DNA from: Chrysophaeum taylorii
Lineage: Eukaryota > Sar > Pelagophyceae > Pelagomonadales > Pelagomonadaceae
Reading direction: 5' to 3'
NCBI GenBank assembly: GCA_029834535.1
Contig: JAQMWT010000341.1
Location: 237,153-301,152, forward strand
Length of the DNA: 64,000 bases
Positions 2 through 62,439 of the stretch are shown here, in pieces; within the stretch, counting starts at the first letter, position 1, and each line of letters starts with the position of its first letter. A program made the translations under genes and the position numbers. The notes below the pieces were generated by a model that was not told where the DNA came from, searched no databases, and saw nothing but the letters and a program-made list of their open reading frames with translations.

Positions 2-868
2 TCGTCCAGTGGTGTCGGCGGAAGTGTTGCCTTCAAATCTGGGTATGGTGTTCGTGGAGGGGGCTTAAAGTTAGCGGGCGGTGAAAGCATTGCCAGCATT
101 GGCGGAACAGTCTCGCTCAAGTCTGGTGGCAGCGACACGTCGCACAGTGGCATGGTGCAAGTAACAAGCCGCGATGGACCGAGCAGTGGTGATATGTGCC
201 TTACGACAGGGGCATCAAGCAATTTTTCTTCGGGGACTGTGAACATAATGACAGGGAACGGACAGACTGGCAGGACGAAGGTATGCTTGACAACAGGTGA
301 CTGTTACCGAGGTCGAGCAGAGTCGATTCTAACACTCGCTGGTCCATCGGCTTCCTGCCGTGGTGGCGGTCATTGCTTTATTTCGGGAAGCGGAACTAAC
401 GGTGGTTGTATAGACCTAGATGCTGGCTTGAGTTCTGATGACCATGGCGGTTCAATCATGTTTGATGCCGGCGCTTCGGCATCGAGTGGAGGGTCTATTC
501 AGTTGAACACGGGTCGAGCGCATTGCGACGGGGCAGCTGCAGGATCATTATGTGTTCGTTCTGGTTCCGGTGCTGTTCATGGAGGCACAGTACAACTAAT
601 GTCGGGCGCAGGATCTGCCGAGTTCGGCAACATCGAATTGAATACTGGGCCCTCAGTGTTCAATGTCACTTCGGACGAGTGCGTGTTGCGATCCAAGTCT
701 GTTGCATATGCTGCCGCTTCCATGATTTCATTGACGAATCCATCGACATCCCCATTGGACGATACATCAGCTGGCATTCATCTTGATGTCAGTAACAGGG
801 CGAAGGGTACTGATTTTTCCGTTCAGCATTTCGAGGACAAACCTTGCGTGCTCTCTTCTGTACCCTTG
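2..868 (+). repeat. Irregular short Gly/Ser repeats before the S74 domain
   Basis: About 13-20 residue repeats follow the pattern G-G/S, then 4-5 residues alternating with hydrophobic ones, then [ST]-G, then a variable turn (for example GGTVQLMSGAG and GGSIQLNTGR). The spacing is not constant and Cys is common. The region continues beyond the window start. From about 650 to 868 the repeat pattern gives way to a non-repeat linker leading into S74. A beta-strand/turn, solenoid-like fold is inferred from the alternation; no structure is known to me. Confidence 0.75.
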
Positions 869-3800
869 AGAATCATGGGCACGAAATATTCCTCGGATCA
901 TCGAATCAAACGAGACATTCAATACGATGTGGATGTAGGAAAGCTCTATCAGGCATTTGTCAATATCAGCCTCGCTAACTATCACTACACAAATGACTGG
1001 GCCGAGGTTCGAGGGGTTGATCCGGAAACGAAGGCACGTGGCGTCATTGCTCAAGAAGTCGCTGCGATCTCTCCCTTCAAGTCAAGGATCGACGTCTCAG
1101 ACTACACTGACAAAAACTTTGCGCTGGAAAATATGTACAAAGTGGATAAACAAGGCATGGTGTTGGATCTGATCGGCGCACTTCAAGCAAGGCAAGAACG
1201 TTTGACCACGAATGTCGATCAACCCGAGAAAACCGGCAACATCACAATGGCGACTGACAGCGGACTGGCTGGTGGCAAGCTGCACTCTAGTGGCAACCTG
1301 TGCATTGGTACTGGGCTTTCCAGGGATCGAGATTCCGGATTCATCGAGATGCAGACTGGTCATGCCAAAGCGCGAGACAGCGGATCGCTCGCCCTTTCTG
1401 CTGGTGTATCGACATGCATTGGTGGGGACATGAGAATCAAAGGTGGCCAAGCATGTGAGGGTATGGGCAGCAATGTACACTTTATGGCAGGGCATTCATC
1501 CACAGGAAGTGAAGCTGGGGCTTCGAGCATTCATGTTTCTAGTGGCCAATCCAGCTCAGAAGGCGGCTCAATCCAACTAATTGGGGGTTCATCACCCACA
1601 TGCACATGGTCTGCTGGTGGCCATGTTGGGATAGAAACGTCTTCCGGCTCAGGTAGCAGTGGATCTATATTGATTGGTCACCGAAGCAGCGGCCCTGCAT
1701 CCAGAGGATTTCTTACTCGGCTCGATGCCGGGGGCAAGGCGCGCGTGTGTAGTGGTAGCGCGAAAGACAAGAGCCAAGCTTCGTCTGGAAACATCAGCAT
1801 AGTAACAGCCGCTCATAAGAGCTTGGGAAGTGTCTGCGTTATAGCAGGCAAACACGATGGAAGAGGCTCTGTTTTGAGTTTGTCGACGGGAAACAGTACA
1901 GCGCCATTCTCAGATACTTATATCAAAATCCTCGCTGGTTCAAGCTCTGCTGCAGGTTGTATCGGCTTGACGTCTGGGAATGCTTGCGATGGGCGAAGTC
2001 GTGGCGGGCTTTCGTCGTTGAGCGCAGGTAAGGCTGAGTCCGGTGGATTGGTAGATGTGCGCGCCGGACATGGCCAATGTGGAGTCGGGGGGAAGCTCGG
2101 GCTCCTGTCTGCATGTGGGACACAAGCCAGTGGAAGCATATCCTTGCGGACAGAATCTTCGATGGCAAACACTGGAGGAGTGCGAATCCGAACTGGCAGG
2201 TCTGCTCAAGGCGCAACAGGTTTTGTCTATATTGGTTCTGGAGTCGCACCAAGTGGCTGCGCGGGGAATGTGTCGTTGCACTCGGGTTTTACATCCGGGT
2301 CGGGAGCCGGCGTAAACCTGACAGCAGGCACGTCACGCGCGGACTGTGGTGGTTTTGCGACGCTCAGCGCGGGTGCCGGACATATAGGTGGAGCTATAAG
2401 TTTTGCTGGCGGAGCAGGAAGCGCGAGCGCAGGGAACTTGTCTCTCGCCGCTGGTTTCGGGGAACAGGGTGGTGGCATGTTCGCTTTGAAAAGCGGGAAT
2501 TCTGTGCAGAACAATGGTGGAGCGGTAAGTGCGGAAGCTGGTTGTGGTGCTTATGGGCCAGGTGGACATTTATGCCTGCTCAGTGGAAGTCAGAAGCTGG
2601 CCTCGTCAGTTGAAACGTCCGTTGGCACATCTTTGACTCTGGATGCAGGGCGTGGACAACATGCTGCTGGGAGTGCCATCATCGCATCGGCTCAGTCTAC
2701 AAGTGGGTCTGGCAATGTGGCACTTATCACTGGCAACGTGAGCGGCGGAATCTCTGGTTCAATCAATCTGACATCTGGTTATGCGAGCACTCCTGGTTCC
2801 TATTGTCTGCGTGCTGGTTCAGGCGCTCAAGGAGGTTACCTTGCATTAGTGAGCGGCAGCATGAATGTAGATCAACGAGAGGCGGACAGTGCCTTTCATG
2901 GGGGGAATGTGAACTTGAAGGCACAACATGCTTCTTGTGGGGGCTGTGGGGGCTTGTTGTGTCTGGCGTCAGGGGAAGGATCGATCGAAGCAGGAGGCAA
3001 CTTCCTCTTACGTGCAAGTTCAGGATGTGGAGACGGGGGCTTGGTCACAATGACGAGCGGAAATGCGAGCGCAGTGTCGAGCGGCAGTTTGGGCCTGGCC
3101 ACAGGAGCATCAAGCGAAGGGCTCTCAGGTTCGCTAGACCTTACAACTGCCCACAGCTACAGCGGCAGGGGTGGGCATATAGACTTTCTGGTTGGCCGCG
3201 TCAAACACGAGAGTGCCTTGGCTGGTAATGTAACAATTCGTTCGGCCACAGGGCTCCAAGGGACTGGTGGGAACGTAGAGATCACTTCAGGCTCGATGCC
3301 ACCGCAAAGTGGGATCTCTCTTTCTACAGTTGACAGCGACACTTCTGCTGGAGAAATGTCAATTGCAGTGGGTTCTGGTGGCCGATATGTTGTTGGCTGC
3401 ATGACTGCCGCTGCCGGCAACGCTTCGTTCAGCGGTGGCATGGTTGCCGTGAATGCTGGATCTGCTGCAGAAGGGTCGGTTTCTCGAGCAGGATCTGTCG
3501 CGATTAATGCCGGCACGGCGCATGACGGCAGTGGTGGTCACTTGTTTTGTTTATCGGGACAGAGTGATGCAGAATCTGGGGCGCTCTTTTTGAATTCGAA
3601 GAGTGCTGAGACGAACAGTGGTCACATCAGTATCCAAACTGGTACTGCTGGTTTAGGAGCAACTGGTGCCATATGCGCTGAAACTGGCGAGAGCCCAGCG
3701 GGGCCCGGCGGCAACATCTCACTCCGCGTCGGGTCGGCCGGACGTGAATGTGGGGGTGACGTGCTGCTTGTCGCCTCTTTGACAGTGGATGCTGAAACAC

Positions 3801-6800
3801 ATGTTGCCTCATCTGGTGCGCGCATCAGGCTCGTAGCGGGAAGTAGTACAGCTCGGAATTGCTACGGCGGTTGCTGTTCTATGAAGGCGGGTGACAATGG
3901 CGGAGACGCGCACATTGGGAGTGGCCGAAGCGTGCATGCAAATTCTGGGAACGTCGATCTGACAACACCACGCGGTGATGATTCATCTGGATGCATAAGC
4001 CTGACAACTGCAAGCCGGAATTATGCGCAGAGTGGATCTGTGACATTCTCAACTGGAGGATCAGAGACTACCTCAAGCGGCTTCATCGACATTGCTATTG
4101 GTGATACGACCCTTTTGGCTGGCTCAGTTATCTGTGCTGCTGGTGCGAATACGGGCGATGGTGGTCGAGTCAGTGTCCACGCCGCGAACGGAAAGAATGG
4201 CGGATCCGTCGTGCTGCGTACTGGTTTCTGCATTGATGGGCAATCACGGAGTTTTCATGCGTGCGACATTGCGGGTGGTGTCGCTTGCGTGGCAACGGGT
4301 GGTGGCGTCGAAATGCTCTCGGGACAGAGTCCTCAACAGGCTGCTGGCAATGTCTTGATGCAAGCGGGGGACGATGGGCTTGCTGGTGGCAATATGTCGA
4401 TCCTTGCGGCAATGAGCCGTGGCGCTACTGAAACAGGCGGTCGAGCCCGCATATCATCAGGCTCTGGCCGCTTTGCAGGGTCAGTTACTGCGGCTACACA
4501 AAGTGGAAACATCAGCGTTAGAACTGGCAATGCAAATAGCCAGGGTGACAGCGGTAGTGTCTTTGTCGAGACTGGTGACACCAATGGAGCATCTGGAGAG
4601 GTGCAGTTGGAGGTAGGCTATAGCGATAATTCCTATGGCGGCAAGGCGCTGCTTTCAGCAGGGAGCAACAATGAAGGCGGAGGCGATCTTGCCATCCTTG
4701 CTGGTGCAACATGTGAAACAGGGGTGGTTTATGCTGGTGGCGCCATCGAAGTCAAGGGAGGAGTCGGACAGCATGCGACGGGTTGTGTCTTGCTTGCAGG
4801 CGGCGATTCTGAGCGAGATGCCACTGGCAGCACCCACGTATTCACTGCCACGTCGCAGGGTGCCGCTTCTACCGGAGCCCTAAACTTTACCTCGGGAGAT
4901 GCGGGGAAGTTGAGTGGCGATGCCATACTCGAATCAGGTTCGTCTCAGTCTAAGCCCGGTGGCATAAGGTTTCGGGCGCGGCGAGCGAAGCAAGGAGGAT
5001 CAATATGGGTATGTGGTGGGTCCATGTCGGGTGCCGACAGTGCTGGAGGGCAGATCCAATTGGCTGCTGGTTCTGGGCCAACCGGCGGTGTCGTTTCAAT
5101 GCGCAGTGGAGCCAGCGCAAGTGCTGATGGGGGTAATGTCAGCATTACAGCTGGTTCAAGCAGCCTGATCGATGGCGGAGACGGGAGTGGCGGCATATGC
5201 CTGGTGCCCGGGCCTTCATCGGCCGGTTGCGGGAGCAATCTGTCCATAAATGGAGGCCATGGAAGCAATGAGTGTGCCCCTGGTGGTGATGTCGCAATCC
5301 AGGCAGGTGATTCGCTTGAGTCGCGGCCTGGAGGTGACATTCTCATGAATGGTGGTATCGGACTGAAGACAGGTAACATTTTTCTTGCCACAGGAGATGG
5401 CCCATCAAGTGGAAATTCAACCTTATCGACGGGAGACGCGCTTGAGCGCAGTGGCGTGTTTGGCGTTGAAACAGCTAGTCCGGGTGGTGAGGCAGGAAGA
5501 ATCCTGCTTGGTTCGGGGGCAGCTACCTTTGCTGCAGGTGGTGTTGTGCTTACTGCTGGTTCAGGATCTCATGGCTTCAGCGGGGCTGTAAACATGTCGG
5601 CCGGCAGAGCTGGCGCTGATGGCATGGGCGGTTCGGTGGCTGCGATCGGGGGAAACGGTCGCGATGGCATAGGAAGCGGGGTATCGATACTGAGTGGACT
5701 AGGAGGTGATCTTCCTTCCGGAGCTCTACTGTTGCACACAGACTGCGGTTCAAGTAGTAGCCCGAGTGGTGCCTTTTCGATTCGTACCGGAGATGCGTTG
5801 GACGGCGACGCACATGATGTTCGGGTTACCAGCGGTTTGTCACAAGATGCGCGCGCTGGCGGCATTGTCTGTGGTGTGGGTGCTGGGAGCAATGAAGGTG
5901 GATTTCTCAATGCCACTACCGGGTGCACTGTTGGAGAAGGTCATGCTGGGGGAAACGCCACATTTACCGCTGGCGGGGGACATGCTGGTGGCTCACTGCG
6001 CATTGTCGCCGGCAGTGGAGCTTGTGGCAATGGCGGGGGTATCTTGTGCACGGCACAGCACGCTGAATGTGGATTCGGTGGTCGGCTTATGCTTGAAGGA
6101 GGTAACGGAAGACGTGAAAATGCAGGTGAGGTCGCCGTGACCGCGGGCGTTCGTGCTTGTCATGGAGGTTCTATTGTCGTGACCGGAGGTCCAACCACTG
6201 GAGTTCAACAACAAGCCGGGAATATCAGCATCTTTGCCGGCTGTGGGTCATCGCGTAGAGCTTCGAGCGGCTCTGTTGTGATCAAGACGCCCACAGAACA
6301 CGGAAGAGTTGACATTATTAGCGGCTCGACGGAGTTTGGACATAGCGGGTCGAGCATGCTGGGATCTGGGAACGCCACCAATCATGCAGGCAGCATAAAT
6401 CTGACTGCAGGTACGAGTGGCATCGACCCCCCGTCGGATTTTTTCATTCGCGCTGGTCGTGGTGGAGATAGTATAGGTTGTGGTGGAACCCTATTACTCT
6501 TTTCTGGTGACAGTCGCGACGCTGGTGGTATGGGTGGTCCGCTTCTCATGCACGCTGGTCATGCGAAAATCTCGGGCGGTGGGATGGTGCTGTCCAGTGG
6601 CGACTCTTGCCTTCAGTCGGGGAGCATCTGTATTGAGACCCCCAAATCCTGCTTCGCTGCCAGTGGAAGCATTTCGCTCGCCTCTTATGAACACGACCGA
6701 AAAGCCAATTGCTTAACAAAATCTGGGGCCGTGACGTTGTCAACGGGAACATCAAGAAGTGCAATGGCTGGGGCGATCAGGCTAATTTCTGGTGAGGCGG

Positions 6801-9800
6801 AAGAAGCTGGCGGTGCCGTGTCGATTCGTGTCGATGGCACTACGAGTAGTAAAACAGTCGTTGGCACGTACCGAGTCTGTGCTGGTTACGGTAACCAAGG
6901 AGCTTCCGTGGATATTGCCAGCGGAAGAGGGAATGTTGAAAACGGTGGCCCTGTTTGCATTATGGGCGGAGAGGGCAAATTCGAGGAAGGTGCGACACTG
7001 TCGGTCATCGCCGGCTCGTCTGCAGGCGCATGTGCGGGAACACTCGACATTCGGGCAGGCAGTTCCAGCGCTGCAAGTGGCACAAGCAAGGAGAATATGT
7101 GTGGCGGCGGCGTGGGCGTCCATGCTGGCTGTAGCTCGTACATGCAGGGAGGTAGCTTGGCATGCGGTAGCGGGAACGGTGGGAACGTCAGCATTCTATC
7201 ATACAACACCACGGGCGATGGAGGGAGCGGGAAGTTGTCGTTCAAAACTGGCACAACTACTCGCAGCAACTCTGGCGTCTTGGTGCTCTTGACTGGCCAA
7301 GCCGAGGGTGGTCGTGGTGGCAACATACTACTCAACGTGGGCACTGGAGACGACGAACCTGGTGGGAACGTCGAAATCTCAGCCGGCGATTCAACTTCCA
7401 TTCGAGACCAGGGCGGTGGTAGTATTTTCCTGTGCTGTCCGTCTGGAGACGAAACACAGCAGGGTGGCTCGTTGACATTTGTGGCTGGTCCAGGATACCC
7501 TGGAGGCGATGTGAATTTCACTTCCGGTTTGGGTTTGTCCTCGCCCGGAAGTGGCGTGTTGACGCTGCGCACGGCAAACGGCGGGTCGTCCGGAGGAAGT
7601 GGGCCCATTGTGATCATAACCGGGACAACTAACCGACATGATGCTGGCTCGCTGCGTCTCCATTCTGGCGGAGCCCTCGACGGGGCTGCTGGGATCATAA
7701 ACATATCCGCAGGAGCGGCATTGGAGTCAGACGATGCCGGTCCTGTCCGCATTGAAGCGGGTGGCTCCACGTCGTCCGCGGGCGGGTCATTCGTTTTGCG
7801 CACTGGAGGCGGGCTTGGCTCGGACAGCGGGCACATAGAGTTGGTCACGGCAGACGCCGGTACTCTTGGAGCAAGCGGGCACATAGATTTGACCACAGGA
7901 TCGGCTTCACTTGGTAGTAGCGGAGATATTACGCTGTGGACGGGAAGTGCGGCATCTGGCGCCGGCGGGAGCATATTCATTGCTGTCGGTGATTCTCGCT
8001 TGGAGTCTACCTTCGCTTCTGGGAAGTCAACCGTCGGAGGCAGCATCCATCTCCAGTCTGGTTGTGGCATTGTAGACGGCCAAGGTCTCGGGGGAAGTGT
8101 ACTGATGATGACACAAAATGCTGGCGAGGCGGGAACGAGTGGCAACATTCTGTTGAATACTGGAACGTCAAGTCTAGGAAACTCTGGTTTTGTGTCGATC
8201 AAGTCGGGCATAGCGACAAGTGGCGGTGGTGGCGCGGTCCTTGTTCGCGTCGGTGACGGCGACAGCGCTAATGGTGGTTCGATCAGCATTGTAGCAGGTT
8301 CAACGACAGGAATCGAAGCCTCGGGTGGGTCGGCCAAGCTCAAGGCAGGTTCTGGCTTGGCCAGTACATGCAGTGAAGGAGGTCTTGTAGCTTGTCGAGG
8401 TGGCTGTGGATCTACTGACTCTGGCGGAAACATATGGATCGTTGCAGGGTGCGCAGAAGCAACAACCACGGGCGCTATCACGCTTCGCACTCAAAATGCT
8501 GGAAAGATCGGGGTAAGTGGCATGCTGCAGATTCAGACAGGAACATCCTTCCAGGGAAATACCGGCAGTGTGACTTGTGCATCTGGAGTCGCGAAAGGTG
8601 GCTCGGGTGGCAACATCAGCATAACTGTTGGAAGCGGCGACAGTGGAATTGGGGGGTGCATGTGTTTCAAGGCAGGCGACACCACGGCCAACGACGAGGT
8701 TGATGCGAGAATTGGTGGTGATTTTATTGTCACAGGTGGAATCGGCGGAGCTGGTGGTGCGGTTGCCTTTGAGAGTGGCAAGGGTGCAACTGCTTCTGGT
8801 GGCTCGGTATGCACCGTCAGTGGTTTTGGTGTGGCCACCAGTAGTGGAAACTTGACCATTGCATCAGCCGAGAGCGGACCAAATGGTGTCAGTGGCCACA
8901 TCGAAGTGACGAGCGGTCGCGCTTCCTACGGAAATTCGGGCTGGTTTAACGTAACTACCGGTGAAACTACGGAGGGTAGCGGTGGGAATCTATCCATTGC
9001 AGTTGGGCAAGGACTTAGTGGGTCTGGCGGGAACGTGACCGCGCGCTCTGGTTGCAGCAACCATTTAAGCGGCGGTGCCGTAGACATTTCTACTGGTGAA
9101 GGAACCGCTACAAGCAGTGGAAGTATCTTCGTGCTTACCGCCAATGCAGGTGCGCGTGGCGTGAGCGGGAATCTTCGCTTCAGTTCTGGAACCAGCACTC
9201 ATGGAAACAGCGGGACTCTCGCGATGGCTACAGGCGTGTCAAGCGCTGGTCGAGGTGGTCGTATCTACGTTGGTGTCGGTTACGGCCAGGATTCAGGTGG
9301 CGAGATATTCTGTGCCTCTGGTCGTAGCTGGGAGAACAGCGGTGGTTGGATTTGTCACAGCAGTGGCGAAGGCACGCAGACAAGTAGTGGTGGTGTCACG
9401 ATCGCCACAATGAACGCAGGAGTGGAGGGGGTCAGTGGCCGACTGCATTTTAGCACTGGAAGTTCAAAGAGAGGAAACTCGGGATGTATGCAGCTAGGCT
9501 CGGGTGCTGCATCAGGCGGTACTGCGGGGCATCTGGTGATTGCGGTTGGAAGTGGCACGAGTGGAACTGGCGGCGCGTGTCACTTGACCTCTGGGGGTTG
9601 TATTCTAGGTTCGGGTGGCATCATTGCGGTGTACAGTGGAGAGGGCACTGCCGCATCGAGTGGTAACATTCGGATTTCGACTATGAACTCTGGTGTTTCA
9701 GGTGTGAGTGGACGTTTGTGCTTCAGCTCTGGAACCAGCCGGAGAGGCAATAGCGGTCATATTGTTCTAGGCTCGGGAATCGCGACAAACGGCCGCGGTG

Positions 9801-31108: not shown

Positions 31109-32265
31109 GCGTTGGAAGCGGCATGAGCGGATCAGGTGGATCAATCGAGTTAAATTCGGGCCGAAGCACGGTGCTCAGTGGCGGTTGCCTCGCCATAGCG
31201 AGTGGAGAGGGGGTGCAGTCGACTAGTGGGTCAATTTCGATTCGTACGGCGAACTCTGGAGTTGAAGGCACGAGCGGACTACTTCTTTTCAGCTCAGGTA
31301 CATCGCTTGCGGGCAACAGTGGAATGTTGCTTATCGGATCGGGTGCTGCCAGCGCAGGTACTGGCGGAGACCTCGGTGTGACCGTTGGCAGCGGCACTAG
31401 CGCGTCTGGAGGCGTTCTGTGCTTGCTGTCCGGGCGCAGTACTGTCAAGTCTGGTGGCTGCATTGTTGTCGAGAGCGGCGAAGGAACTGCGAGTAGTAGC
31501 GGCGCGCTTCTTGTGAAAAGTGCGAATTCCGGCGTTGGGGGTGTCAGTGGCTACCTATCTTTTAGCTCGGGCGCGACCAAGTCGGGCAACAGCGGTATGT
31601 TATGCATTGGCACTGGTGACGCCACATCTGGGCGTGGAGGTGCGATCAGCGTTACTTCTGGTAGCGGGACAAGTGGTGCTGCTGCTTCAATTGACGTAAT
31701 ATCAGGGCGCAGCACCGTGCAAACTGGCGGATATCTTATCGTGAGCTCTAGTGAAGGAACAGCGACAAGCAGCGGTGCGGTGCGCATCCAGACGGCAAAT
31801 GGTGGCACTGCTGGAACGAGCGGGCTGCTCTCTTTTAGTTCAGGATCGTCACAGACAGGAAACTCGGGTGCATTTTGCCTGGCTTCTGGTGTGGCATCGG
31901 TTGGTTGCGGAGGCTTTGTGAGCCTGAGTGTTGGAAGTGGAACTAGTGGTGCGGGTGGCAGAATTTCGTTGGCATCGGGTCGCACCTCGTTAGCCACGGG
32001 CGGGACAATACAGCTAGAGTCTGGCGAAGGCACCGCGTCGAGCAGTGGCACCGTGGTTTTGCGGACAAGCAATGCTGGTGTCGCTGGAAGTAGCGGGTTG
32101 CTCCTCTTCAGCTCGGGGAGTGCAGTGACGGGAACGCCGGAGTTGTCAGGCTCGGCACCGGCGCGGCTTCTTCTGGCTGTGGAGGTGCTATACGGCTTAC
32201 TATTGGGAGCGGCACAAGCGGAAGCGGTGGGAAAGCCAAGGTTGCCTCGGGCCGAACTACGTTAG
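31096..32265 (+). CDS. Repeat-protein continuation fragment 2
   Basis: It continues the 91-residue array directly from the frameshift at 31,091-31,095, starting TVRLSVGSG, the same phrase as the intact copy at 21,54x. About 345 residues match the repeat. After 32,133 the frame is lost through a second one-base deletion, and the last ~44 codons (Leu/Ala/Pro-rich) are out of frame. This is not an independent gene: it has no start context, and an in-frame Met at 31,099 is incidental. Confidence 0.6.
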   Translation, partial: TVRLSVGSGMSGSGGSIELNSGRSTVLSGGCLAIASGEGVQSTSGSISIRTANSGVEGTSGLLLFSSGTSLAGNSGMLLIGSGAASAGTGGDLGVTVGSGTSASGGVLCLLSGRSTVKSGGCIVVESGEGTASSSGALLVKSANSGVGGVSGYLSFSSGATKSGNSGMLCIGTGDATSGRGGAISVTSGSGTSGAAASIDVISGRSTVQTGGYLIVSSSEGTATSSGAVRIQTANGGTAGTSGLLSFSSGSSQTGNSGAFCLASGVASVGCGGFVSLSVGSGTSGAGGRISLASGRTSLATGGTIQLESGEGTASSSGTVVLRTSNAGVAGSSGLLLFSSGSAVTGTPELSGSAPARLLLAVEVLYGLLLGAAQAEAVGKPRLPRAELR

Positions 32266-34328: not shown

Positions 34329-34579
34329 GCGTGGCTTCTGGTGTGGCATCAGTTGGCCGCGGAGGCTTTGTATGTCTGAGTGTTGGAAGTGGAACTAGCG
34401 GTGCCGGGGGTATTTTGTCGCTGGCATCGGGCCGCAGTACTTCAGTCACGGGAGGTACGATGCGACTGGTCAGGCGAAGGCATCGGCGTCGAGCAGTGGC
34501 ACCATCATGTTGCGGACAAGCAACGCTGGAATCAGCGGAAGCAGCGGGCTTCTCATCTTCAGCTCAGGGAGTGCAGTGA
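34328..34579 (+). CDS. Repeat-protein continuation fragment 4 (short)
   Basis: The frame resumes at 34,328 (SVASGVASVG) and carries about 47 residues of repeat to 34,468. There a 2-bp loss and, about 14 bp on, a 1-bp gain relative to 24,910-24,935 change the frame twice. The downstream part of this frame (Arg-rich) is not real coding. The breaks coincide with the junction between two different repeat copies. Confidence 0.5.
   Translation, partial: SVASGVASVGRGGFVCLSVGSGTSGAGGILSLASGRSTSVTGGTMRLVRRRHRRRAVAPSCCGQATLESAEAAGFSSSAQGVQ
34468..34484 (+). other. Mosaic junction with two compensating indels
   Basis: To the left the sequence is a copy of about 24,820-24,915, to the right a copy of about 27,408-27,778. 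Between them gactggagtcagg has become gactggtcagg and ggcacggcg has become ggcatcggcg. The net change is -1. It falls in the GEGT motif, like the other breakpoint of this block. Confidence 0.7.
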
Positions 34580-49500: not shown

Positions 49501-52500
49501 GTGTCGAGTAGCGGAAGCATACTCGTTCGTACGACCAACGGCGGCGTGTCAGGAGCGAACGGTGCTCTCGTATTCAGCTCAGGATCTGCATGTAACAGTA
49601 ATAGCGGCGGGGTCTCGATGAGTTCAGGAACTTCGACGTCTGGTCGTGGTGGCGCAGTCTATATTAGTAGCGGCAGTGGCACTTCCGGTTCGGGCGGGGC
49701 CATATCGCTATTCGGCGGAAGATCAACAGCGAAGACTGGCGGTGCCATCTCAATCCGTGCTGGCGAGGGCACGGCATCCTCTAGTGGTGCAATTTTCATC
49801 AGCAGCACAAACGTGGGCACGGACGGTACCAGCGGCATCCTAACATTCAGCTCTGGAATCGGAACCGCTGGTAACAGCGGTGTGATGACGTTCGGAACCG
49901 GGGTAGCAACCGAAGGATGTGGTGGCAGCGTGCGGCTAAATGTGGGGAGTGGCACGAGTGGAACAGGCGGTCAGCTGGAGATTCTCAGTGGCCGTGCGAC
50001 ATCCGCGACTGGTGGCACATTGGAGTTATTGAGTGGTGAAGGGACAGCGACAAGTAGCGGTGCAATTTTGATGACGACATCTAATGCTGGGGACTCTGGT
50101 AATTCGGGTTTTCTTCGATTTAGCTCGGGTACCTCGGTAACCGGCAACTCCGGCTCCATTAGATTTGGCTCGGGGTCGGCATCATCTGGGCAAGCTCGAA
50201 AGCTCACCATCAGTGTCGGTAGCGGCACGAGCGGAATCGGTGGCACGTTTGGTACTACAGCTGGACGTGGCACTCAAAGTACGGGGGGCCTGATGCTCTT
50301 CTCGAGCGGAGAAGGAACGGCGACGAGCAGTGGTTCGTTGTCGATCACCACGGCAAACTCTGGTGTCGGCGGTGGTAGCGGGTATCTTTCATTCAGCTCT
50401 GGTTCGAGCACGACCGGAAACAGCGGTGCCACGTCGGTCGCATCGGGAGCCGCAACTGATGGAACCAGTGGTTCCGTTTGCATCGCCATTGGCAGTGGTA
50501 CTAGCGGCACAGGAGGCAATACTCAAGTTCTCGGAGGGCGAGCATCCGAAATGACGGGAGGGCGTATTGTGGTTCATGCTGGCGAAGGCACAGCGTCAAG
50601 CTCTGGCATGGTTAGAATCTTCACTATGAATAGCGGTCAAGCGGGATTGAGTGGCCGATTAGTCTTCAGTACTGGCTCGTCGCGCTCTGGCAACAGCGGT
50701 CGTATCGCTGCAGGTTCCGGTTCGAGCACGGTCGGAAGAGGCGGCGCTATCCTCTTGACTGTGGGGAGTGGAAGTTCAGGTGTTGGTGGCCGATGTTTTT
50801 GTGCGAGTGGCGGTAGTACTATCGCGACTGGTGGGTCATTGAGGTTTCTTAGTGGCGAGGGCACGGCAACGTCGAGTGGCACAGTTCGTGTTTTCAGCGC
50901 GAACTCTGGAGTGAACGGTGTGAGCGGATACTTGGCGTTCAGCTCGGGAGCTTCCTCATCAAGCAACAGCGGTTCTGTGTGCTTTGATTCCGGTGCGGCC
51001 ACAGGTGGAAGTGGCGGCACCATAAAGTTATGTGTCGGCAGTGGAACGAGTGGCGCTGGCGGTAGCATTCGCACCAGTAGCGGGCGTGCGACTGCAACGA
51101 GTGGTGGGTTGGTTCGGCTGAGTAGTGGAGAAGGAACGGCGTCAAGCAGCGGCAGCATCAGCATCGTGAGCTCAAACGCTGGAGTATCTGGGTGCAGCGG
51201 ACTACTCGTCTTTAGTTCGGGGACTGCAAAAACTGGCAATTCGGGTGACCTGCTTGTTGGTTCGGCTTCGGCCGCGGGCGGCAAGGCTGGCGACGTTACC
51301 ATAGGTGTAGGCAGTGGCACGAGTGGTGTTGGTAGTGCAATCACATTGTTAGCTGGTCAAGACGCTGTCAATACTGGAGGGCATTTGGAATTAGCAAGCG
51401 GAGAAGGGACGGGGACAAGCAGTGGCTCGATTTTGCTTTCGAGCGCAAACGTTGCATGCGCTGGTGCGAGCGCTCTCCTAGTATTCAGCACGGGCGTGGC
51501 CCGAGGAGGCGGGAACAGTGGAACTACAATGCTCGCGTCGGGGGTGTCGACTGGTGGACGCGGAGGCAGCCTTATACTCACTGTTGGGAGCGGCACAAGT
51601 GGTGTCGGCGGTACTATCAGCGCGTATTCTGGTAGAAGTACTTCACAGTCGGGTGGGCGTGTCGACACCACAGGCGGCGAGGGTACCGCGTCGAGTAGCG
51701 GAAGCATAATCGTTTCGACGATCAACGTCGGCATATCGGGAACGAGTGGTGCTCTGGTTTTCAGCTCAGGATCCGTCTGTAACAGTAATAGCGGAGGAAT
51801 AATGTTTGGTTCTGGAGCTTCGACGTCCGGTCGTGGCGGCGCGATCTTTATTAGTAGCGGGGGTGGCACCTCCGGTTCGGGCGGGGCCATGTCGCTATTC
51901 GGCGGAAGATCAACGGCGAAGACTGGTGGCGCCATCTCAATCCGTGCTGGCGAGGGCACGGCATCCTCGAGTGGTGCAATCTTCATCGGCAGCACAAACG
52001 CAGGCTCGGCCGGTACCAGTGGCATCCTAACATTCAGCTCCGGAATCGGAACCGCTGGTAACAGCGGTGTGGTAACGTTCGGAACCGGGGTGGCGACCGG
52101 AGGATGTGGTGGCAGGGTGCGGGTGAATGTGGGAAGTGGCACGAGTGGAACAGGCGGTCAGCTGGAGGTTCTCAGTGGCCGTGCGACATCCGCGACGGGT
52201 GGCACACTGGAGTTATTGACTGGTGAGGGGACGGCGACAAGTAGTGGTGCAATTTTGATGACGTCATCAAATGCTGGAGACTCTGGTAATTCGGGCTTTC
52301 TTCGATTTAGCTCGGGTACCTCGGTGACCGGCAACTCCGGCTCCACTAAATTTGGCTCGGGGTCGGCGTCGGCTGGGCGAAGTGGAAAGCTCACAATCAG
52401 TGTTGGTAGCGGCGCGAGCGGAATCGGTGGCACATTTGGTACGACAGCTGGACGTGGCACTCAAAGTACAGGAGGCGTGATGGTCTTCTTGAGCGGAGAA

Positions 52501-53211: not shown

Positions 53212-53489
53212 ACTTATGTGTCGGCAGCGGAACGAGCGGAGCTGGTGGTAACATCCGTGGGAAGGGTGGACGAGCGATCGCGAAGAGCGGTGGCGCAGTT
53301 CGGCTGAGCAGCGGAGAAGGTACAGCATCAAGCAGTGGCAGCATAAGCATCACGAGCTCGAACGCGGGAGTGTCAGGGTGCAGTGGACCGCTCGTCTTCA
53401 GTTCGGGGACGTCGAAAAGTGACAACTCGGGTGGTGTCCATCTTGGCACATCACCAGCATCTGGAGAAAGGCTGGTAGTATCAGCTTGA
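53193..53489 (+). CDS. Repeat-protein continuation fragment 6
   Basis: About 92 residues of one unit (GSGGILNLCVGSG, then SGRST-equivalent, GEGTASSSG and FSSGTSK) lie between two frameshifts at 53,191 and 53,463-53,469. The last residues before the stop are out of frame. It is part of the array, not a gene. Confidence 0.5.
   Translation, partial: GSGGILNLCVGSGTSGAGGNIRGKGGRAIAKSGGAVRLSSGEGTASSSGSISITSSNAGVSGCSGPLVFSSGTSKSDNSGGVHLGTSPASGERLVVSA
53463..53469 (+). other. Frameshift: ctgggggaaagg reduced to ctggagaaagg
   Basis: Compared with 49,091-49,102 one base is missing and one G is A. The third copy (57,833-57,836) is also one base short at the same place but in a different form. Confidence 0.8.
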
Positions 53490-56400
53490 GTTTGGGCAGT
53501 GGTGCGAGTGGTGCGGGATCGTCGAGTCAGTTGTTGGCTGCACGCAGTACCACCAGCACCGGTGGACTTCTCGTCTTCTTCACCGGCGAAGGAACCGTGT
53601 CTAGCAGTGGGTCGATCTGCATTTTAAGTGCTAATGCTGGGTTGGGCGGCGGAGGAGGTGGACTTATGTTCAGCTCTGGCGTTGCAACTGCTGGGAATAG
53701 TGGCTCAAACCTAGTCGGTTCAAGAGAATCTACTGCTGGTCGCGGTGGCTTTGTTTTACTGGCCGTAGGGAGCGGAACAAGTGGTGCTGGCGGATCTGTC
53801 AGCGTGTATTCTGGTAGGAGCACCTCACAGACAGGTGGGTGCGTTGACATCGCTGGCGGAGAGGGTACCGTGTCGAGTAGCGGAAGCATACTCGTTCGTA
53901 CGACCAACGGCGGCGTGTCAGGAGCGAACGGTGCTCTCGTATTCAGCTCAGGATCTGCATGTAACAGTAATAGCGGCGGGGTCTCGATGGGTTCAGGAAC
54001 TTCGACGTCTGGTCGTGGTGGCGCAGTCTATATTAGTAGCGGCAGTGGCACTTCCGGTTCGGGCGGGGCCATATCGCTATTCGGCGGAAGATCAACAGCG
54101 AAGACTGGCGGTGCCATCTCAATCCGTGCTGGCGAGGGCACGGCATCCTCTAGTGGTGCAATTTTCATCAGCAGCACAAACGTGGGCACGGACGGTACCA
54201 GCGGCATCCTAACATTCAGCTCTGGAATCGGAACCGCTGGTAACAGCGGTGTGGTGACGTTCGGAACCGGGGTAGCAACCGAAGGATGTGGTGGCAGCGT
54301 GCGGCTAAATGTGGGGAGTGGCACGAGTGGAACAGGCGGTCAGATGGAGATTCTCAGTGGCCGTGCGACATCCGCGACTGGTGGCACATTGGAGTTATTG
54401 AGTGGTGAAGGGACAGCGACAAGTAGCGGTGCAATTTTGATGACGACATCTAATGCTGGGGACTCTGGTAATTCGGGCTTTCTTCGATTTAGCTCGGGTA
54501 CCTCGGTAACCGGCAACTCCGGCTCCATTAGATTTGGCTCGGGGTCGGCATCATCTGGGCAAGCTCGAAAGCTCACCATCAGTGTCGGTAGCGGCACGAG
54601 CGGAATCGGTGGCACGTTTGGTACTACAGCTGGACGTGGCACTCAAAGTACGGGGGGCGTGATGCTCTTCTCGAGCGGAGAAGGAACGGCGACGAGCAGT
54701 GGTTCGTTGTGGATCACCACGGCAAACTCTGGTGTCGGCGGTGGTAGCGGGTATCTTTCATTCAGCTCTGGTTCGAGCACGACCGGAAACAGCGGTGCCA
54801 CGTCGGTCGCATCGGGAGCCGCAACTGATGGAACCAGTGGTTCCGTTTGCATCGCCATTGGCAGTGGTACTAGCGGCACAGGAGGCAATACTCAAGTTCT
54901 CGGAGGGCGAGCATCCGAAATGACGGGAGGGCGTATTGTGGTTCATGCTGGCGAAGGCACAGCGTCAAGCTCTGGCATGGTTAGAATCTTCACTATGAAT
55001 AGCGGTCAAGCGGGATTGAGTGGCCGATTAGTCTTCAGTACTGGCTCGTCGCGCTCCGGCAACAGTGGTCGCATCGCTGCAGGTTCCGGTTCGAGCACGG
55101 TCGGAAGAGGCGGCGCTATCCTCTTGACTGTGGGGAGTGGAAGTTCGGGTGTTGGTGGCCGATGTTTTTGTGCGAGTGGCGGTAGTACTATCGCGACTGG
55201 TGGGTCATTGAGGTTTCTTAGTGGCGAGGGCACGGCAACGTCGAGTGGCACAGTTCGTGTTTTCAGCGCGAACTCTGGAGTGAACGGTGTGAGCGGATAC
55301 TTGGCGTTCAGCTCGGGAGCTTCCTCATCAAGCAACAGCGGTTCTGTGTGCTTTGATTCCGGTGCGGCCACAGGTGGAAGTGGCGGCACCATAAAGTTAT
55401 GTGTCGGCAGTGGAACGAGTGGCGCCGGCGGTAGCATTCGCACCAGTAGCGGGCGTGCGACTGCAACGAGTGGTGGGTTGGTTCGGCTGAGTAGTGGAGA
55501 AGGAACGGCGTCAAGCAGCGGCAGCATCAGCATCGTGAGCTCAAACGCTGGAGTATCTGGGTGCAGCGGACTACTCGTCTTTAGTTCGGGGACTGCAAAA
55601 ACTGGCAATTCGGGTGACCTGCTTGTTGGTTCGGCTTCGGCCGCGGGCGGCAAGGCTGGCGACGTTACCATAGGTGTAGGCAGTGGCACGAGTGGTGTTG
55701 GTAGTGCAATCACATTGTTAGCTGGTCAAGACGCTGTCAATACTGGAGGGCATTTGGAATTAGCAAGCGGAGAAGGGACGGGGACAAGCAGTGGCTCGAT
55801 TTTGCTTTCGAGCGCAAACGTTGCATGCGCTGGTGCGAGCGCTCTCCTAGTATTCAGCACGGGCGTGGCCCGAGGAGGCGGGAACAGTGGAACTACAATG
55901 CTCGCGTCGGGGGTGTCGACTGGTGGACGCGGAGGCAGCCTTATACTCACTGTTGGGAGCGGCACAAGTGGTGTCGGCGGTACTATCAGCGCGTATTCTG
56001 GTAGAAGTACTTCACAGTCGGGTGGGCGTGTCGACACCACAGGCGGCGAGGGTACCGCGTCGAGTAGCGGAAGCATAATCGTTTCGACGATCAACGTCGG
56101 CATATCGGGAACGAGTGGTGCTCTGGTTTTCAGCTCAGGATCCGTCTGTAACAGTAATAGCGGAGGAATAATGTTTGGTTCTGGAGCTTCGACGTCCGGT
56201 CGTGGCGGCGCGATCTTTATTAGTAGCGGGGGTGGCACCTCCGGTTCGGGCGGGGCCATGTCGCTATTCGGCGGAAGATCAACGGCGAAGACTGGTGGCG
56301 CCATCTCAATCCGTGCTGGCGAGGGCACGGCATCCTCGAGTGGTGCAATCTTCATCGGCAGCACAAACGCAGGCTCGGCCGGTACCAGTGGCATCCTAAC

Positions 56401-57859
56401 ATTCAGCTCCGGAATCGGAACCGCTGGTAACAGCGGTGTGGTAACGTTCGGAACCGGGGTGGCGACCGGAGGATGTGGTGGCAGGGTGCGGGTGAATGTG
56501 GGAAGTGGCACGAGTGGAACAGGCGGTCAGCTGGAGGTTCTCAGTGGCCGTGCGACATCCGCGACGGGTGGCACACTGGAGTTATTGACTGGTGAGGGGA
56601 CGGCGACAAGTAGTGGTGCAATTTTGATGACGTCATCAAATGCTGGAGACTCTGGTAATTCGGGCTTTCTTCGATTTAGCTCGGGTACCTCGGTGACCGG
56701 CAACTCCGGCTCCACTAAATTTGGCTCGGGGTCGGCGTCGGCTGGGCGAAGTGGAAAGCTCACAATCAGTGTTGGTAGCGGCGCGAGCGGAATCGGTGGC
56801 ACATTTGGTACAACAGCTGGACGTGGCACTCAAAGTACAGGAGGCGTGATGCTCTTCTTGAGCGGAGAAGGAACGGCGACGAGCAGTGGTTCGTTGTGGA
56901 TCACCACGGCAAACTCTGGTGTCGGAGGTGGAAGTGGGTATCTTTCATTCAGCTCTGGTTCGAGCACAACCGGAAACAGCGGTGCCGTGTCTGTCGCATC
57001 TGGAGCCGCAACTGGTGAAACCAGTGGTTCCGTTTGCATCGCAATCGGCAGTGGTACCAGCGGCACCGGAGGCAATACTAAAGTTCTCGGAGGGCGAACA
57101 TCAGAAATGACGGGAGGGAACATTGTGGTTTATGCTGGCGAAGGCACAGCGTCAAGCTCCGGCGTGGTCAGCATCTTCACCATGAACAGCGGTCAAGCGG
57201 GATTGAGTGGCCGATTAGTCTTCAGTACTGGCTCGTCGCGCGCTGGCAACAGTGGTTGCATTGCTGCAGGTTCTGGTTTGAGCACTGGCGGACGAGGTGG
57301 CGCTATATTGTTGGCTGTGGGGAGTGGAACATCCGGCGTTGGTGGCCGGGTTGTTCTTGCGAGTGGTGCTAGTACTGTTGCGACTGGCGGTTTGCTGAGT
57401 GTTTTTGGCGGTGAGGGTACTGCAACGTCTAGTGGTGTTGTTTGCATTGTCAGCGCAAACTCGGGTGCGAACGGGGTGAGCGGACACTTAACGTTCAGCT
57501 CGGGGTCGTCCACCTCGAAAAACAGCGGCTCTATGTGCCTCGGTACCGGCACGGCATCCGGGGGATCTGGCGGCATCTTAAACTTATGTGTCGGCAGCGG
57601 AACGAGCGGAGCTGGTGGTAACATCCGTGGGAAGGGTGGACGAGCGATCGCGAAGAGCGGTGGCGCAGTTCGGCTGAGCAGCGGAGAAGGTACAGCATCA
57701 AGCAGTGGCAGCATAAGCATCACGAGCTCGAACGCGGGAGTGTCAGGGTGCAGTGGACCGCTCGTCTTCAGTTCGGGGACGTCGAAAAGTGACAACTCGG
57801 GTGGTGTCCATCTTGGCACATCACCAGCATCTGGGGAAAGGCTGGTAGTATCAGCTTGA
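53468..57859 (+). CDS. Repeat-protein continuation fragment 7
   Basis: About 1,455 residues of regular units start KAGSISLSLGSG, identical in phrasing to the intact frame at 49,10x. It covers the second copy of the 4.37-kb block and the start of the third. It ends in the out-of-frame tail ERLVVSA, produced by a one-base deletion at 57,833-57,836. The first Met (53,486) follows the resumed frame by six codons and is not a credible start. Confidence 0.65.
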   Translation, partial: KAGSISLSLGSGASGAGSSSQLLAARSTTSTGGLLVFFTGEGTVSSSGSICILSANAGLGGGGGGLMFSSGVATAGNSGSNLVGSRESTAGRGGFVLLAVGSGTSGAGGSVSVYSGRSTSQTGGCVDIAGGEGTVSSSGSILVRTTNGGVSGANGALVFSSGSACNSNSGGVSMGSGTSTSGRGGAVYISSGSGTSGSGGAISLFGGRSTAKTGGAISIRAGEGTASSSGAIFISSTNVGTDGTSGILTFSSGIGTAGNSGVVTFGTGVATEGCGGSVRLNVGSGTSGTGGQMEILSGRATSATGGTLELLSGEGTATSSGAILMTTSNAGDSGNSGFLRFSSGTSVTGNSGSIRFGSGSASSGQARKLTISVGSGTSGIGGTFGTTAGRGTQSTGGVMLFSSGEGTATSSGSLWITTANSGVGGGSGYLSFSSGSSTTGNSGATSVASGAATDGTSGSVCIAIGSGTSGTGGNTQVLGGRASEMTGGRIVVHAGEGTASSSGMVRIFTMNSGQAGLSGRLVFSTGSSRSGNSGRIAAGSGSSTVGRGGAILLTVGSGSSGVGGRCFCASGGSTIATGGSLRFLSGEGTATSSGTVRVFSANSGVNGVSGYLAFSSGASSSSNSGSVCFDSGAATGGSGGTIKLCVGSGTSGAGGSIRTSSGRATATSGGLVRLSSGEGTASSSGSISIVSSNAGVSGCSGLLVFSSGTAKTGNSGDLLVGSASAAGGKAGDVTIGVGSGTSGVGSAITLLAGQDAVNTGGHLELASGEGTGTSSGSILLSSANVACAGASALLVFSTGVARGGGNSGTTMLASGVSTGGRGGSLILTVGSGTSGVGGTISAYSGRSTSQSGGRVDTTGGEGTASSSGSIIVSTINVGISGTSGALVFSSGSVCNSNSGGIMFGSGASTSGRGGAIFISSGGGTSGSGGAMSLFGGRSTAKTGGAISIRAGEGTASSSGAIFIGSTNAGSAGTSGILTFSSGIGTAGNSGVVTFGTGVATGGCGGRVRVNVGSGTSGTGGQLEVLSGRATSATGGTLELLTGEGTATSSGAILMTSSNAGDSGNSGFLRFSSGTSVTGNSGSTKFGSGSASAGRSGKLTISVGSGASGIGGTFGTTAGRGTQSTGGVMLFLSGEGTATSSGSLWITTANSGVGGGSGYLSFSSGSSTTGNSGAVSVASGAATGETSGSVCIAIGSGTSGTGGNTKVLGGRTSEMTGGNIVVYAGEGTASSSGVVSIFTMNSGQAGLSGRLVFSTGSSRAGNSGCIAAGSGLSTGGRGGAILLAVGSGTSGVGGRVVLASGASTVATGGLLSVFGGEGTATSSGVVCIVSANSGANGVSGHLTFSSGSSTSKNSGSMCLGTGTASGGSGGILNLCVGSGTSGAGGNIRGKGGRAIAKSGGAVRLSSGEGTASSSGSISITSSNAGVSGCSGPLVFSSGTSKSDNSGGVHLGTSPASGERLVVSA
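57833..57836 (+). other. Frameshift: G run shortened (5 to 4)
   Basis: ctggggaaagg here, ctgggggaaagg in the first copy near 49,091. It is the same site as the 53,463 break, so two of the three copies are broken at one codon. Confidence 0.8.
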
Positions 57860-59349
57860 GTTTGGGCAGTGGTGCGAGTGGTGCGGGATCGTCGAGTCAG
57901 TTGTTGGCTGCACGCAGTACCACCAGCACCGGTGGACTTCTCGTCTTCTTCACCGGCGAAGGAACCGTGTCTAGCAGTGGGTCGATCTGCATTTTAAGTG
58001 CTAATGCTGGGTTGGGCGGCGGAGGAGGTGGACTTATGTTCAGCTCTGGCGTTGCAACTGCTGGGAATAGTGGCTCAAACCTAGTCGGTTCAAGAGAATC
58101 TACTGCTGGTCGCGGTGGCTTTGTTTTACTGGCCGTAGGGAGCGGAACAAGTGGTGCTGGCGGATCTGTCAGCGTGCATTCTGGTAGGAGCACCTCACAC
58201 ACAGGTGGGTGCGTTGACATCGCTGGCGGAGAGGGTACCGTTTCGAGTAGCGGAAGCATACTCGTTCGTACGACCAACGGCGGCGTGTCAGGAGCGAACG
58301 GTGCTCTCGTATTCAGCTCAGGATCTGCATGTAACAGTAATAGCGGCGGGGTCTCGATGGGTTCAGGAACTTCGACGTCTGGTCGTGGTGGCGCAGTCTA
58401 TATTAGTAGCGGCAGTGGCACTTCCGGTTCGGGCGGGGCCATATCGCTATTCGGCGGAAGATCAACAGCGAAGACTGGCGGTGCCATCTCAATCCGTGCT
58501 GGCGAGGGCACGGCATCCTCTAGTGGTGCAATTTTCATCGGCAGCACAAACGTGGGCACGGACGGTACCAGCGGCATCCTAACATTCAGCTCCGGAATCG
58601 GAACCGCTGGTAACAGTGGTGTGGTGACGTTCGGAACCGGGGTAGCAACCGAAGGATGTGGTGGCAGCGTGCGGCTAAATGTGGGGAGTGGCACGAGTGG
58701 AACAGGCGGTCAGCTGGAGATTCTCAGTGGCCGTGCGACATCCGCGACTGGTGGCACATTGGAGTTATTGAGTGGTGAAGGGACTGCGACAAGTAGCGGT
58801 GCAATTTTGATGACGACATCTAATGCTGGGGACTCTGGTAATTCGGGCTTTCTTCGATTTAGCTCGGGTACCTCGGTAACCGGCAACTCCGGCTCCATTA
58901 GATTTGGCTCGGGGTGGGCATCATCTGGGCAAGCTGGAAAGCTTACAATCAGTGTTGGTAGCGGCACGAGCGGAATCGGTGGCACGTTTGGTACTACAGC
59001 TGGACGTGGCACTCAAAGTACGGGGGGCCTGATGCTCTTCTCGAGCGGAGAAGGAACGGCGACGAGCAGTGGTTCGTTGTGGATCACCACGGCAAACTCT
59101 GGTGTCGGCGGTGGTAGCGGGCATCTTTCATTCAGCTCTGGTTCGAGCACAACCGGAAACAGCGGTGCCACGTCGGTCGCATCGGGAGCCGCAACTGATG
59201 GAACCAGTGGTTCCGTTTGCATCGCCATTGGCAGTGGTACTAGCGGCACAGGAGGCAATACTCAAGTTCTCGGAGGGCGAGCATCCGAAATGACGGGAGG
59301 GCGTGGTTCATGCTGGCGAAGGCACAGCGTCAAGCTCTGGCATGGTTAG
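57838..59349 (+). CDS. Repeat-protein continuation fragment 8
   Basis: About 489 residues of the third 4.37-kb block resume at KAGSISLSLG. The real repeat ends at 59,304, where five bases (attgt) present at 54,934 and 50,565 are missing after gcgt. The last 15 or so codons are out of frame. Its units match 53,468-54,930 closely. Confidence 0.6.
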   Translation, partial: KAGSISLSLGSGASGAGSSSQLLAARSTTSTGGLLVFFTGEGTVSSSGSICILSANAGLGGGGGGLMFSSGVATAGNSGSNLVGSRESTAGRGGFVLLAVGSGTSGAGGSVSVHSGRSTSHTGGCVDIAGGEGTVSSSGSILVRTTNGGVSGANGALVFSSGSACNSNSGGVSMGSGTSTSGRGGAVYISSGSGTSGSGGAISLFGGRSTAKTGGAISIRAGEGTASSSGAIFIGSTNVGTDGTSGILTFSSGIGTAGNSGVVTFGTGVATEGCGGSVRLNVGSGTSGTGGQLEILSGRATSATGGTLELLSGEGTATSSGAILMTTSNAGDSGNSGFLRFSSGTSVTGNSGSIRFGSGWASSGQAGKLTISVGSGTSGIGGTFGTTAGRGTQSTGGLMLFSSGEGTATSSGSLWITTANSGVGGGSGHLSFSSGSSTTGNSGATSVASGAATDGTSGSVCIAIGSGTSGTGGNTQVLGGRASEMTGGRGSCWRRHSVKLWHG

Positions 59350-60118
59350 AATCTTCACTATGAATAGCGGTCAAGCGGGATTGAGTGGCCGATTAGTCTT
59401 CAGTACTGGCTCGTCGCGCTCTGGCAACAGTGGTCGCATCGTTGCAGGTTCCGGTTCGAGCACGGTCGGAAGAGGCGGCGCTATCCTCTTGACTGTGGGA
59501 AGTGGAAGTTCGGGTGTTGGTGGCCGATGTTTTTGTGCGAGTGGCGGTAGTACTATCGCGACTGGTGGGTCATTGAGGTTTCTTAGTGGCGAGGGCACGG
59601 CAACGTCGAGTGGCACAGTTCGTGTTTTCAGCGCGAACTCTGGAGTGAACGGTGTGAGCGGATACTTGGCGTTCAGCTCGGGAGCTTCCTCATCAAGCGA
59701 CAGCGGGTCTGTGTGCTTTGATTCCGGTGCGGCCACAGGTGGAAGTGGCGGCACCATAAAGTTATGTGTCGGCAGTGGAACGAGTGGCGCTGGCGGTAGC
59801 ATTCGCACCAGTGGCGGCGTGCGACCGTCGAGTGGTGGGTTGGTTCGGCTGAGTAAAGTGGGAGAAGGAACGGCGTCGGTAGCGGCAGCATCAGCATCGC
59901 GAGCTCAAACGCTGGAGTATCTGGGTGCAGCGGACTACTCGTCTTTAGTTCGGGGACTTCAAAACCTGGCAATTCGGGTGACCTGCTTGCTGGTTCGGCT
60001 TCGGCCGCGGGCGGCAAAGGCTAAGCAACCTCCAACTCCGCTCGTGCCACTTCCAACCGCTACTCGCACCTCTCCTCCACGACCGCCTGATGATGCCCCA
60101 GTCCCCAGGCATATTTGA
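59303..60118 (+). CDS. Repeat-protein continuation fragment 9, degraded, ends at strand switch
   Basis: The repeat resumes as VVHAGEGTASSSG after the 5-bp loss and matches 54,940 onward. From about 59,812 the copy carries many small indels: gggcg to ggcg, actgcaacgag to accgtcgag, gtagtggag to gtaaagtgggag, and a lost base near 59,873 that breaks the frame. The same unit continues in another frame to about 60,014 and then stops in mid-unit. Codons after 60,020 are antisense of the opposite-strand array. Base differences from the parallel copies rise sharply in the last 200 bp, as at a poor read end. Confidence 0.45.
   Translation: MVHAGEGTASSSGMVRIFTMNSGQAGLSGRLVFSTGSSRSGNSGRIVAGSGSSTVGRGGAILLTVGSGSSGVGGRCFCASGGSTIATGGSLRFLSGEGTATSSGTVRVFSANSGVNGVSGYLAFSSGASSSSDSGSVCFDSGAATGGSGGTIKLCVGSGTSGAGGSIRTSGGVRPSSGGLVRLSKVGEGTASVAAASASRAQTLEYLGAADYSSLVRGLQNLAIRVTCLLVRLRPRAAKAKQPPTPLVPLPTATRTSPPRPPDDAPVPRHI
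60014..60023. other. Strand-switch junction between two repeat arrays
   Basis: Left of here the sequence follows the copy at 55,640-55,655 (gccgcgggcggcaa, with one extra A). Right of here it is the reverse complement of a unit ending GSGTSGVGGCL. Neither side shows a stop codon, unique C-terminal domain or spacer, so both arrays are cut in mid-unit and joined tail to tail. Confidence 0.85.
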
Positions 60119-62340: not shown

Positions 62341-62439
62341 TTCCACCAGTTGCAGAACCCGAGGCAAGGTGCATCATTCCGCTGTTGCCCGTAGTTGCTG
62401 ATCCAGAGCTGAAGACTAAAATACCACTGCTTCCACATG

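Follow-up and report, generated by a model that had tools for sequence, protein, structure and literature searches.

A candidate giant repeat gene with internal S74 domains and an intact paralogue in the pelagophyte alga Chrysophaeum taylorii

Introduction

What a repeat array that stays open to translation over tens of kilobases might encode is the question raised by a 64,000-nucleotide stretch of the Chrysophaeum taylorii genome (positions 237153 to 301152 of contig JAQMWT010000341.1, hereafter the window), much of which consists of 91-residue units rich in glycine and serine. The contig, here C341, is 301,152 bases long and ends where the window ends; it is one of 697 in the 70.8-Mb assembly that was searched, the others being named in the same short form (C531, C314 and so on), and negative coordinates denote positions upstream of the window. 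An earlier note, made from the letters of the window, had proposed a single intronless protein of about 20,000 residues with neither end in view, interrupted by consensus errors. We consider it likely that the window forms the middle part of a single nuclear gene that codes for a secreted, probably trimeric, giant fibre of this photosynthetic alga, and the proposed mega-protein is probably real and larger than first suggested.

Results

An intact paralogue and the extent of the gene

Contig C314 (985,660 bases) carries a frame at 592381-696903 that is open for 34,841 codons from stop to stop, the 116 kb read containing no N, whereas the other five frames across it contain 232 to 1,413 stops. 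It has an ATG at 592390 with an in-frame stop ahead, a predicted GT-AG intron of 59 nt (C314:696865-696923) and a last exon that ends before a TGA at 697449, the resulting gene model comprising 35,000 codons, 34,825 of which lie in one 104.5-kb first exon. A hidden Markov model (HMM) of the 91-residue unit matches this frame 364 times, 271 of them near full length, and the N-terminal module (N module), both of the Peptidase_S74 domains that this gene likewise possesses and the array share the one frame.

In the window, the plus strand carries a succession of seven stop-to-stop frames, 274 to 10,368 codons long, that reaches position 60,115 (Table 1). The earlier description of more than 10,300 open codons followed by more than 6,200 was confirmed, the counts being 10,368 and 6,270, and the pieces between were confirmed by the unit HMM to be the same repeat in shifted frames; this model matches the window 230 times on the plus strand (181 near full length, the total including a few double counts where scanned chunks overlapped) and 18 times on the minus strand. 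Each of the six frames holds 300 to 773 stops over the whole window, and together with the stop counts on C314 this excludes chance as the origin of the long open frames. The two long window frames contain 23-24% Gly and 19-22% Ser (over the window and C314 frames, Ser plus Thr reaches about 27-32% and Gly 23-25%), and their self-match at a lag of 91 residues is 0.36 and 0.525, against 0.123 and 0.139 expected by composition. Within the 91-residue period runs a sub-period of 15, such that a unit is made of six 15-residue Gly/Ser turns plus one residue, two alternating positions per turn being V, I, L, M or F in 75-100% of 165 units. Tandem Repeats Finder at a score of 200 did not detect the array, and Rfam at gathering scores returned nothing.

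The first frame continues upstream of the window to -2140. Further upstream, a signal-peptide-like start begins with an ATG at -26925 and is followed by a PSI-like Cys-rich module, and intron-like breaks, as of putative introns, were placed by eye near -26.8, -26.5, -23.2, -22.2 and -19.3 kb, several with GT and AG ends. The gene ends on C531 with a C-terminal module (C module). From start to stop it spans 98,023 nt, or 32,674 codons before intron removal, rounded to about 32,500, a length which assumes that window position 46020 corresponds to C531:1 (anchored over 46020-48549, just before repeated units of 4.37 kb) and which a different number of those units would alter. The 20,000 residues first suggested were therefore an underestimate that left out the upstream part and C531, and both ends are now in view, 26.9 kb upstream of the window and on C531. 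As for the absence of introns, it holds for the array but not for the gene as a whole, given the intron-like breaks upstream and the 59-nt intron predicted in the paralogue.

The C modules of C314 and C531 are 55% alike, and the N modules of C314 and C341 are 43% alike over 72 residues. At E<=0.001 the N module occurs at two places in the genome, C314 and C341, and the C module at three, namely C314, C531 and a 29-residue piece on C314. Because DNA similarity between the two genes is confined to short matches of 67-84% (a 2-kb query against C314), with no match of C341 to C314 by megablast at E 1e-50, they are regarded as old paralogues. Judged from sequence, the strongest sign of function is that both have retained the same modules and long open arrays. 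The 29-residue piece (C314:697513-697599), 86% like the end of the C module, lies about 60 nt past the C314 stop, which suggests that the end of the gene underwent a small duplication.

Selection on the array

Rates of nonsynonymous (dN) and synonymous (dS) substitution were estimated with a Nei-Gojobori script on ungapped pairs of duplicated blocks. Two block pairs in the window gave dS 0.0221 with dN 0.0055 (ratio 0.25) and dS 0.111 with dN 0.032 (0.29), and three on C314 gave dN/dS values of 0.251, 0.186 and 0.165. Among 60 units, selected as those whose start motif recurs after exactly 91 residues, the others being dropped, diversity at the three codon positions was 0.374, 0.292 and 0.655, the third being the most diverse; the other five frames of these units contain 53 to 246 stops, and the nonsynonymous proportion of differences (pN) was below the synonymous one (pS) in 98.7% of 1,770 unit pairs. 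The array is under purifying selection and is coding, since dN/dS lies at 0.17-0.29.

Internal S74 domains and the mature product

Peptidase_S74 (PF13884) matches the genome eight times on six contigs, all above the curated cut-off. The two domains in the C341 gene begin at -14593 and 893 and score 47.9 and 30.3 bits against a cut-off of 22; the Pfam scan of window positions 2-20000 returned S74 alone, the part preceding the S74 domains lying mostly upstream of the scanned stretch. The motif S-D-x-R-x-K is present at all eight loci, and in the two loci that were aligned its Ser and Lys positions correspond to residues 587 and 592 of MYRF, although the MYRF chain in structure 7dc3 has Ala at 587, presumably as a cleavage-dead mutant. 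A comparison with PHROG gave tail fibre matches to the S74 region. Passages of two papers describe S74 in phage tailspikes and MYRF as a trimerising domain that cleaves itself through a Ser-Lys dyad (PMC8326128, PMC3742443), the first giving the MYRF cut site as lying between P586 and S587 and the dyad as S587/K592 (PMC8326128). Self-cleavage just before position 893 is predicted.

It is proposed that the protein would be secreted and would trimerise in the manner of phage tail fibres, and that the S74 domains would help to fold the part preceding each of them and then cut the chain. Such cuts would yield about 4,110, 5,160 and 23,400 codons in C341/C531 (introns still counted) and 3,827, 4,616 and 26,557 codons in C314, so that pieces of about 4,000, 5,000 and 23,000-27,000 residues may result. 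The last of these would form a surface fibre about a micrometre long with a lectin-like tip, for structure or adhesion; if the 26,557 residues of C314 are taken as 15-residue turns throughout, each with an assumed rise of 0.5 nm, the fibre would measure about 0.9 micrometre.

On our analysis there is close to an even chance that cuts at the S74 domains divide the mature product into several proteins, so that it is not one chain. Each gene has two such domains with the catalytic motif, of the kind for which the passages cited above report self-cleavage, yet the C314 frame runs unbroken through both, and the primary product would thus be one chain. This alternative is about the mature form and does not conflict with a gene for a giant secreted fibre. 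The notion of one giant repeat protein is supported by the frames, C531 and the intact paralogue, but the two S74 domains suggest that the mature product may be cut.

Two further kinds of S74 locus were observed. Three long genes, on C587, C443 and C323 (open frames of 4,072, 2,768 and 3,508 codons), share with the giant gene a repeat array, an S74 domain and the same motif but differ in that their repeat is 69 residues long and of AGITSTAAVTGTSTL type, and in that S74 sits close to the C terminus. At C109:199042-202212, the S74 match falls in a 143-residue frame near an open frame that resembles a reverse transcriptase by eye.

The proposed fibre shaft and its end

The C module has no confirmed sequence relative in the viral contigs or phage records searched. 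Of its 298-residue model, the only confident piece comprises residues 216-298, with a predicted local distance difference test (pLDDT) score of about 64-88. Searched with Foldseek against BFVD, the model, mostly under pLDDT 50, matched 25 viral proteins at E<=0.001, down to E 7e-07, most being from uncultured phages and some from giant viruses; against the PDB it found the R1 pyocin fibre 6cxb (probability 0.99, E 0.092) and the snail lectin 2cgy (probability 0.89, E 0.95), both weak by E-value. It is the piece of residues 216-298 that resembles the viral, mainly phage, proteins. By sequence, the PDB yielded nothing for four 91-residue units (E<=0.01) or for the C module (E<=1). Relatives of the array were not confirmed in viral contigs, genome contigs or phage records, and 1,000 array residues had no PHROG match and two Pfam matches, both below cut-off, one being a trimeric autotransporter domain (E 0.0032, 17.6 bits against 27).

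The same gene might instead encode a Ser/Thr-rich glycoprotein of mucilage, either soluble or gel-forming, and no folded trimeric fibre, as the high Ser, Thr and Gly contents and the poor fold of the monomer would suggest. We regard this as unlikely, though worth keeping in mind, in view of the regular 15-residue pattern of alternating hydrophobic positions, the S74 chaperones and the fibre-tip-like end.

Frame breaks and the contig end

Each of the nine frame changes on the plus strand (Table 1) falls within a 91-residue unit, the repeat being taken up in a different frame at, or close to, the position expected; introns were rejected as their cause, the units continuing across without an intron-sized insert. 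Four lie at 31-34.5 kb and five in the last 11 kb of C341, and from about 60,022 the repeat switches to the opposite strand. This tail is an inverted copy of part of C531 and is short of bases at 18 of the 21 gaps relative to it, while C531 has an open frame of 4,003 codons there (C531:13070-25078), at whose end stands the C module. On these grounds consensus errors and a misjoin at the end of C341 are likely, the tail itself being a probable misjoin with poor consensus. A fold-back artefact at 60,022 was rejected, the tail being only 72-74% like the adjacent array and matching C531 instead.

Relative to the overlapping part of the window, C531 shows 53 gaps, 39 of them single-base, and 40 fall at C531:2-7 kb, where C531 is broken but the window is open. 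At the breaks near 57.83, 59.30 and 59.89 kb (three of the nine) the C531 counterpart is open, and for the four at 31.1-34.5 kb there is an open copy, 97% alike, at 21.5-24.9 kb, relative to which the broken stretch is gapped. The five distal breaks and those of C531 thus cluster at both contig ends, each contig being open in part of the other's bad stretch. The suggestion that the breaks are consensus errors gains support at the three positions where C531 is open, but is unproved at 31-34.5 and 53.2-53.5 kb.

If the breaks were real mutations, C341/C531 would be a decaying paralogue (a pseudogene) and the C314 gene the working one. Four of the nine breaks do lie far from the contig end and the 53.19-kb break is common to both contigs, but the two long frames, of 11,082 and 6,270 codons, are intact, dN/dS is 0.25-0.29 in recent duplicates within the array, and it is close to contig ends that the remaining five breaks and the majority of the C531 gaps are found, where each contig is partly open at the other's breaks; we therefore judge decay improbable. 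That the array is non-coding satellite DNA with a 273-bp period that is by chance a multiple of three, for which its tandem higher-order duplication might speak, is scarcely credible and was rejected by the selection test, the units having diverged strongly in DNA but been kept in protein, with third positions varying most and dN/dS at 0.17-0.29, and the C314 N module, both S74 domains and array lying in one frame.

Table 1. Features of the window (kb and unprefixed coordinates refer to window positions)
Feature	Position	Strand	Size or match	Remarks
Open frame	2-31105	+	10,368 codons in window; 11,082 counting upstream part to -2140	91-residue array, diverged start
Open frame	31021-32262	+	414 codons	
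Open frame	32094-34325	+	744 codons	
Open frame	34399-53208	+	6,270 codons (6,234 from first ATG)	91-residue units
Open frame	53423-57856	+	1,478 codons	
Open frame	57793-59346	+	518 codons	
Open frame	59294-60115	+	274 codons	
Shifted-frame array	31021-34398	+	Frames 31021-32262, 32094-34325, then short piece	Breaks near 31.09, 32.13, 34.33, 34.48 kb
Shifted-frame array	53423-60115	+		Breaks near 53.19, 53.46, 57.83, 59.30, 59.89 kb
Second S74 domain	893-1075	+	Pfam PF13884; PHROG tail fibre match	Motif SDHRIK; aligned to MYRF 7dc3
Duplication	18912-35216	+	18912-25668 against 28467-35216, 97% alike	Shift 9.6 kb
Higher-order units	48549-60022	+	About 4.37 kb each, 98-99% alike	C531: about 3.9 units, then further array
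Overlap with C531	46020-60022	+	C531:1-13978, 98.9%	C531 holds 3' end of gene
Inverted copy	60011-64000	-	C531:19678-23694; 10 mismatches, 21 gaps	Last 3,990 bases reversed

Other genes in the genome

A frame at L009:9187-9999 (minus strand), some 30 kb upstream of the window, resembles, by eye, a glycosyltransferase of the dolichol-phosphate mannose synthase type. The chlorophyll-binding family PF00504 has 84 matches in the genome, some partial, and antenna genes are clustered on C88, C539, C390 and C533 in three to five copies with equal or near-equal scores; one antenna protein matched several kinds of algal antenna in the PDB, including fucoxanthin chlorophyll a/c proteins. The antenna genes show that the alga is photosynthetic, and it probably has chlorophyll c.

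Discussion

Several observations weigh against a gene for a giant trimeric fibre. The repeat-unit model is poor (mean pLDDT 42.1), and we infer the trimer and the fibre; 217 of the 298 residues of the C-terminal model are under pLDDT 50, and its PDB fold matches are weak, the one at E<=0.001 being the phage tailspike 4ru4 over 324 columns, mainly through low-confidence parts. The C314 N module scores 22.5 bits against the PSI domain (PF01437), just under the cut-off of 23.1. The 53.19-kb break, a neighbour of that at 53.46 kb, recurs at C531:7.14 kb and may be a real frameshift; the breaks at 31.1-34.5, -9.4 and -2.1 kb lie in stretches that a single contig covers, and some of these may be real as well. 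The number of 4.37-kb units is contingent on the assembly. Finally, a minority of the gaps between duplicated blocks have lengths divisible by three (6 of 26, 3 of 18 and 9 of 50 in the three C314 pairs, 13 of 69 and none of 8 in the two window pairs), which we ascribe to aligning copies that have diverged but are equally long in total; unhelpful as it is to the proposed reading, gap length was set aside as a coding test.

With phage tail fibres and tailspikes of the endosialidase type, the algal protein shares an S74 domain with the Ser-Lys motif and PHROG matches, and perhaps a fibre-tip-like fold of the C-terminal module. It differs in that its gene is about 100 kb long with intron-like breaks, in that its S74 domains are internal, with most of the array after them, and in that four of its 91-residue units match none of 50,697 phage records by tblastn, no relation of the array to phage shafts being seen. 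The similarity to the eukaryotic S74 proteins MYRF and MrfA extends over 121 and 102 residues of the S74 region (E 4.6e-7 and 1.8e-7). In the MYRF family an Ndt80-like DNA-binding domain stands ahead of S74; the Pfam scan of window positions 2-20000, most of which follow the algal S74 domains, found no DNA-binding domain. The algal protein differs in its secreted-type start and in its size.

Titin, of about 35,000 residues, and PKZILLA-1 of Prymnesium, of 45,212, are in the same size class, but titin is spread over hundreds of exons while the algal array occupies one; both of these, and giants of the Omnitrophota type, are built of domains other than those of the algal protein. Giant genes encoding up to 85,800 residues are mentioned for Omnitrophota and related bacteria of the PVC group in part of one report (PMC12057145), and a section of another describes Apilactobacillus Giant1-5 as very large extracellular surface proteins of 3,000-8,000 residues, four with predicted beta-solenoids (PMC12863079). 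Both Giant1-5 and the algal protein (by inference) are very large and extracellular, but the former are bacterial. No paper on such an algal protein was noticed among the literature matches listed, for which bioRxiv, most subscription journals and UniProt were outside the scope. Giant proteins, larger ones included, are already known; as far as those matches go, it is the combination of size, a 104.5-kb exon, internal S74 domains and a fibre-tip-like end that is new.

Our fullest proposal, advanced tentatively and with somewhat less than even confidence, is that C. taylorii encodes a pair of secreted paralogues, one of about 32,500 residues and the other of about 35,000, the latter encoded nearly throughout by a single 104.5-kb exon. 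They would fold into giant, trimeric, tail-fibre-like cables that contain self-cutting chaperones of phage type and end in a lectin-like tip; such chains would rank with the largest polypeptides of eukaryotes and would put S74 to a new use. Contig-end consensus errors can conceal such genes from annotation. If the proposal is true, the two would stand among the largest proteins that genome sequences predict for eukaryotes and would be a test case for the transcription, translation and secretion of a 35,000-residue chain, in which a trimerising, self-cutting domain of viral type would serve a micrometre-long eukaryotic surface fibre.

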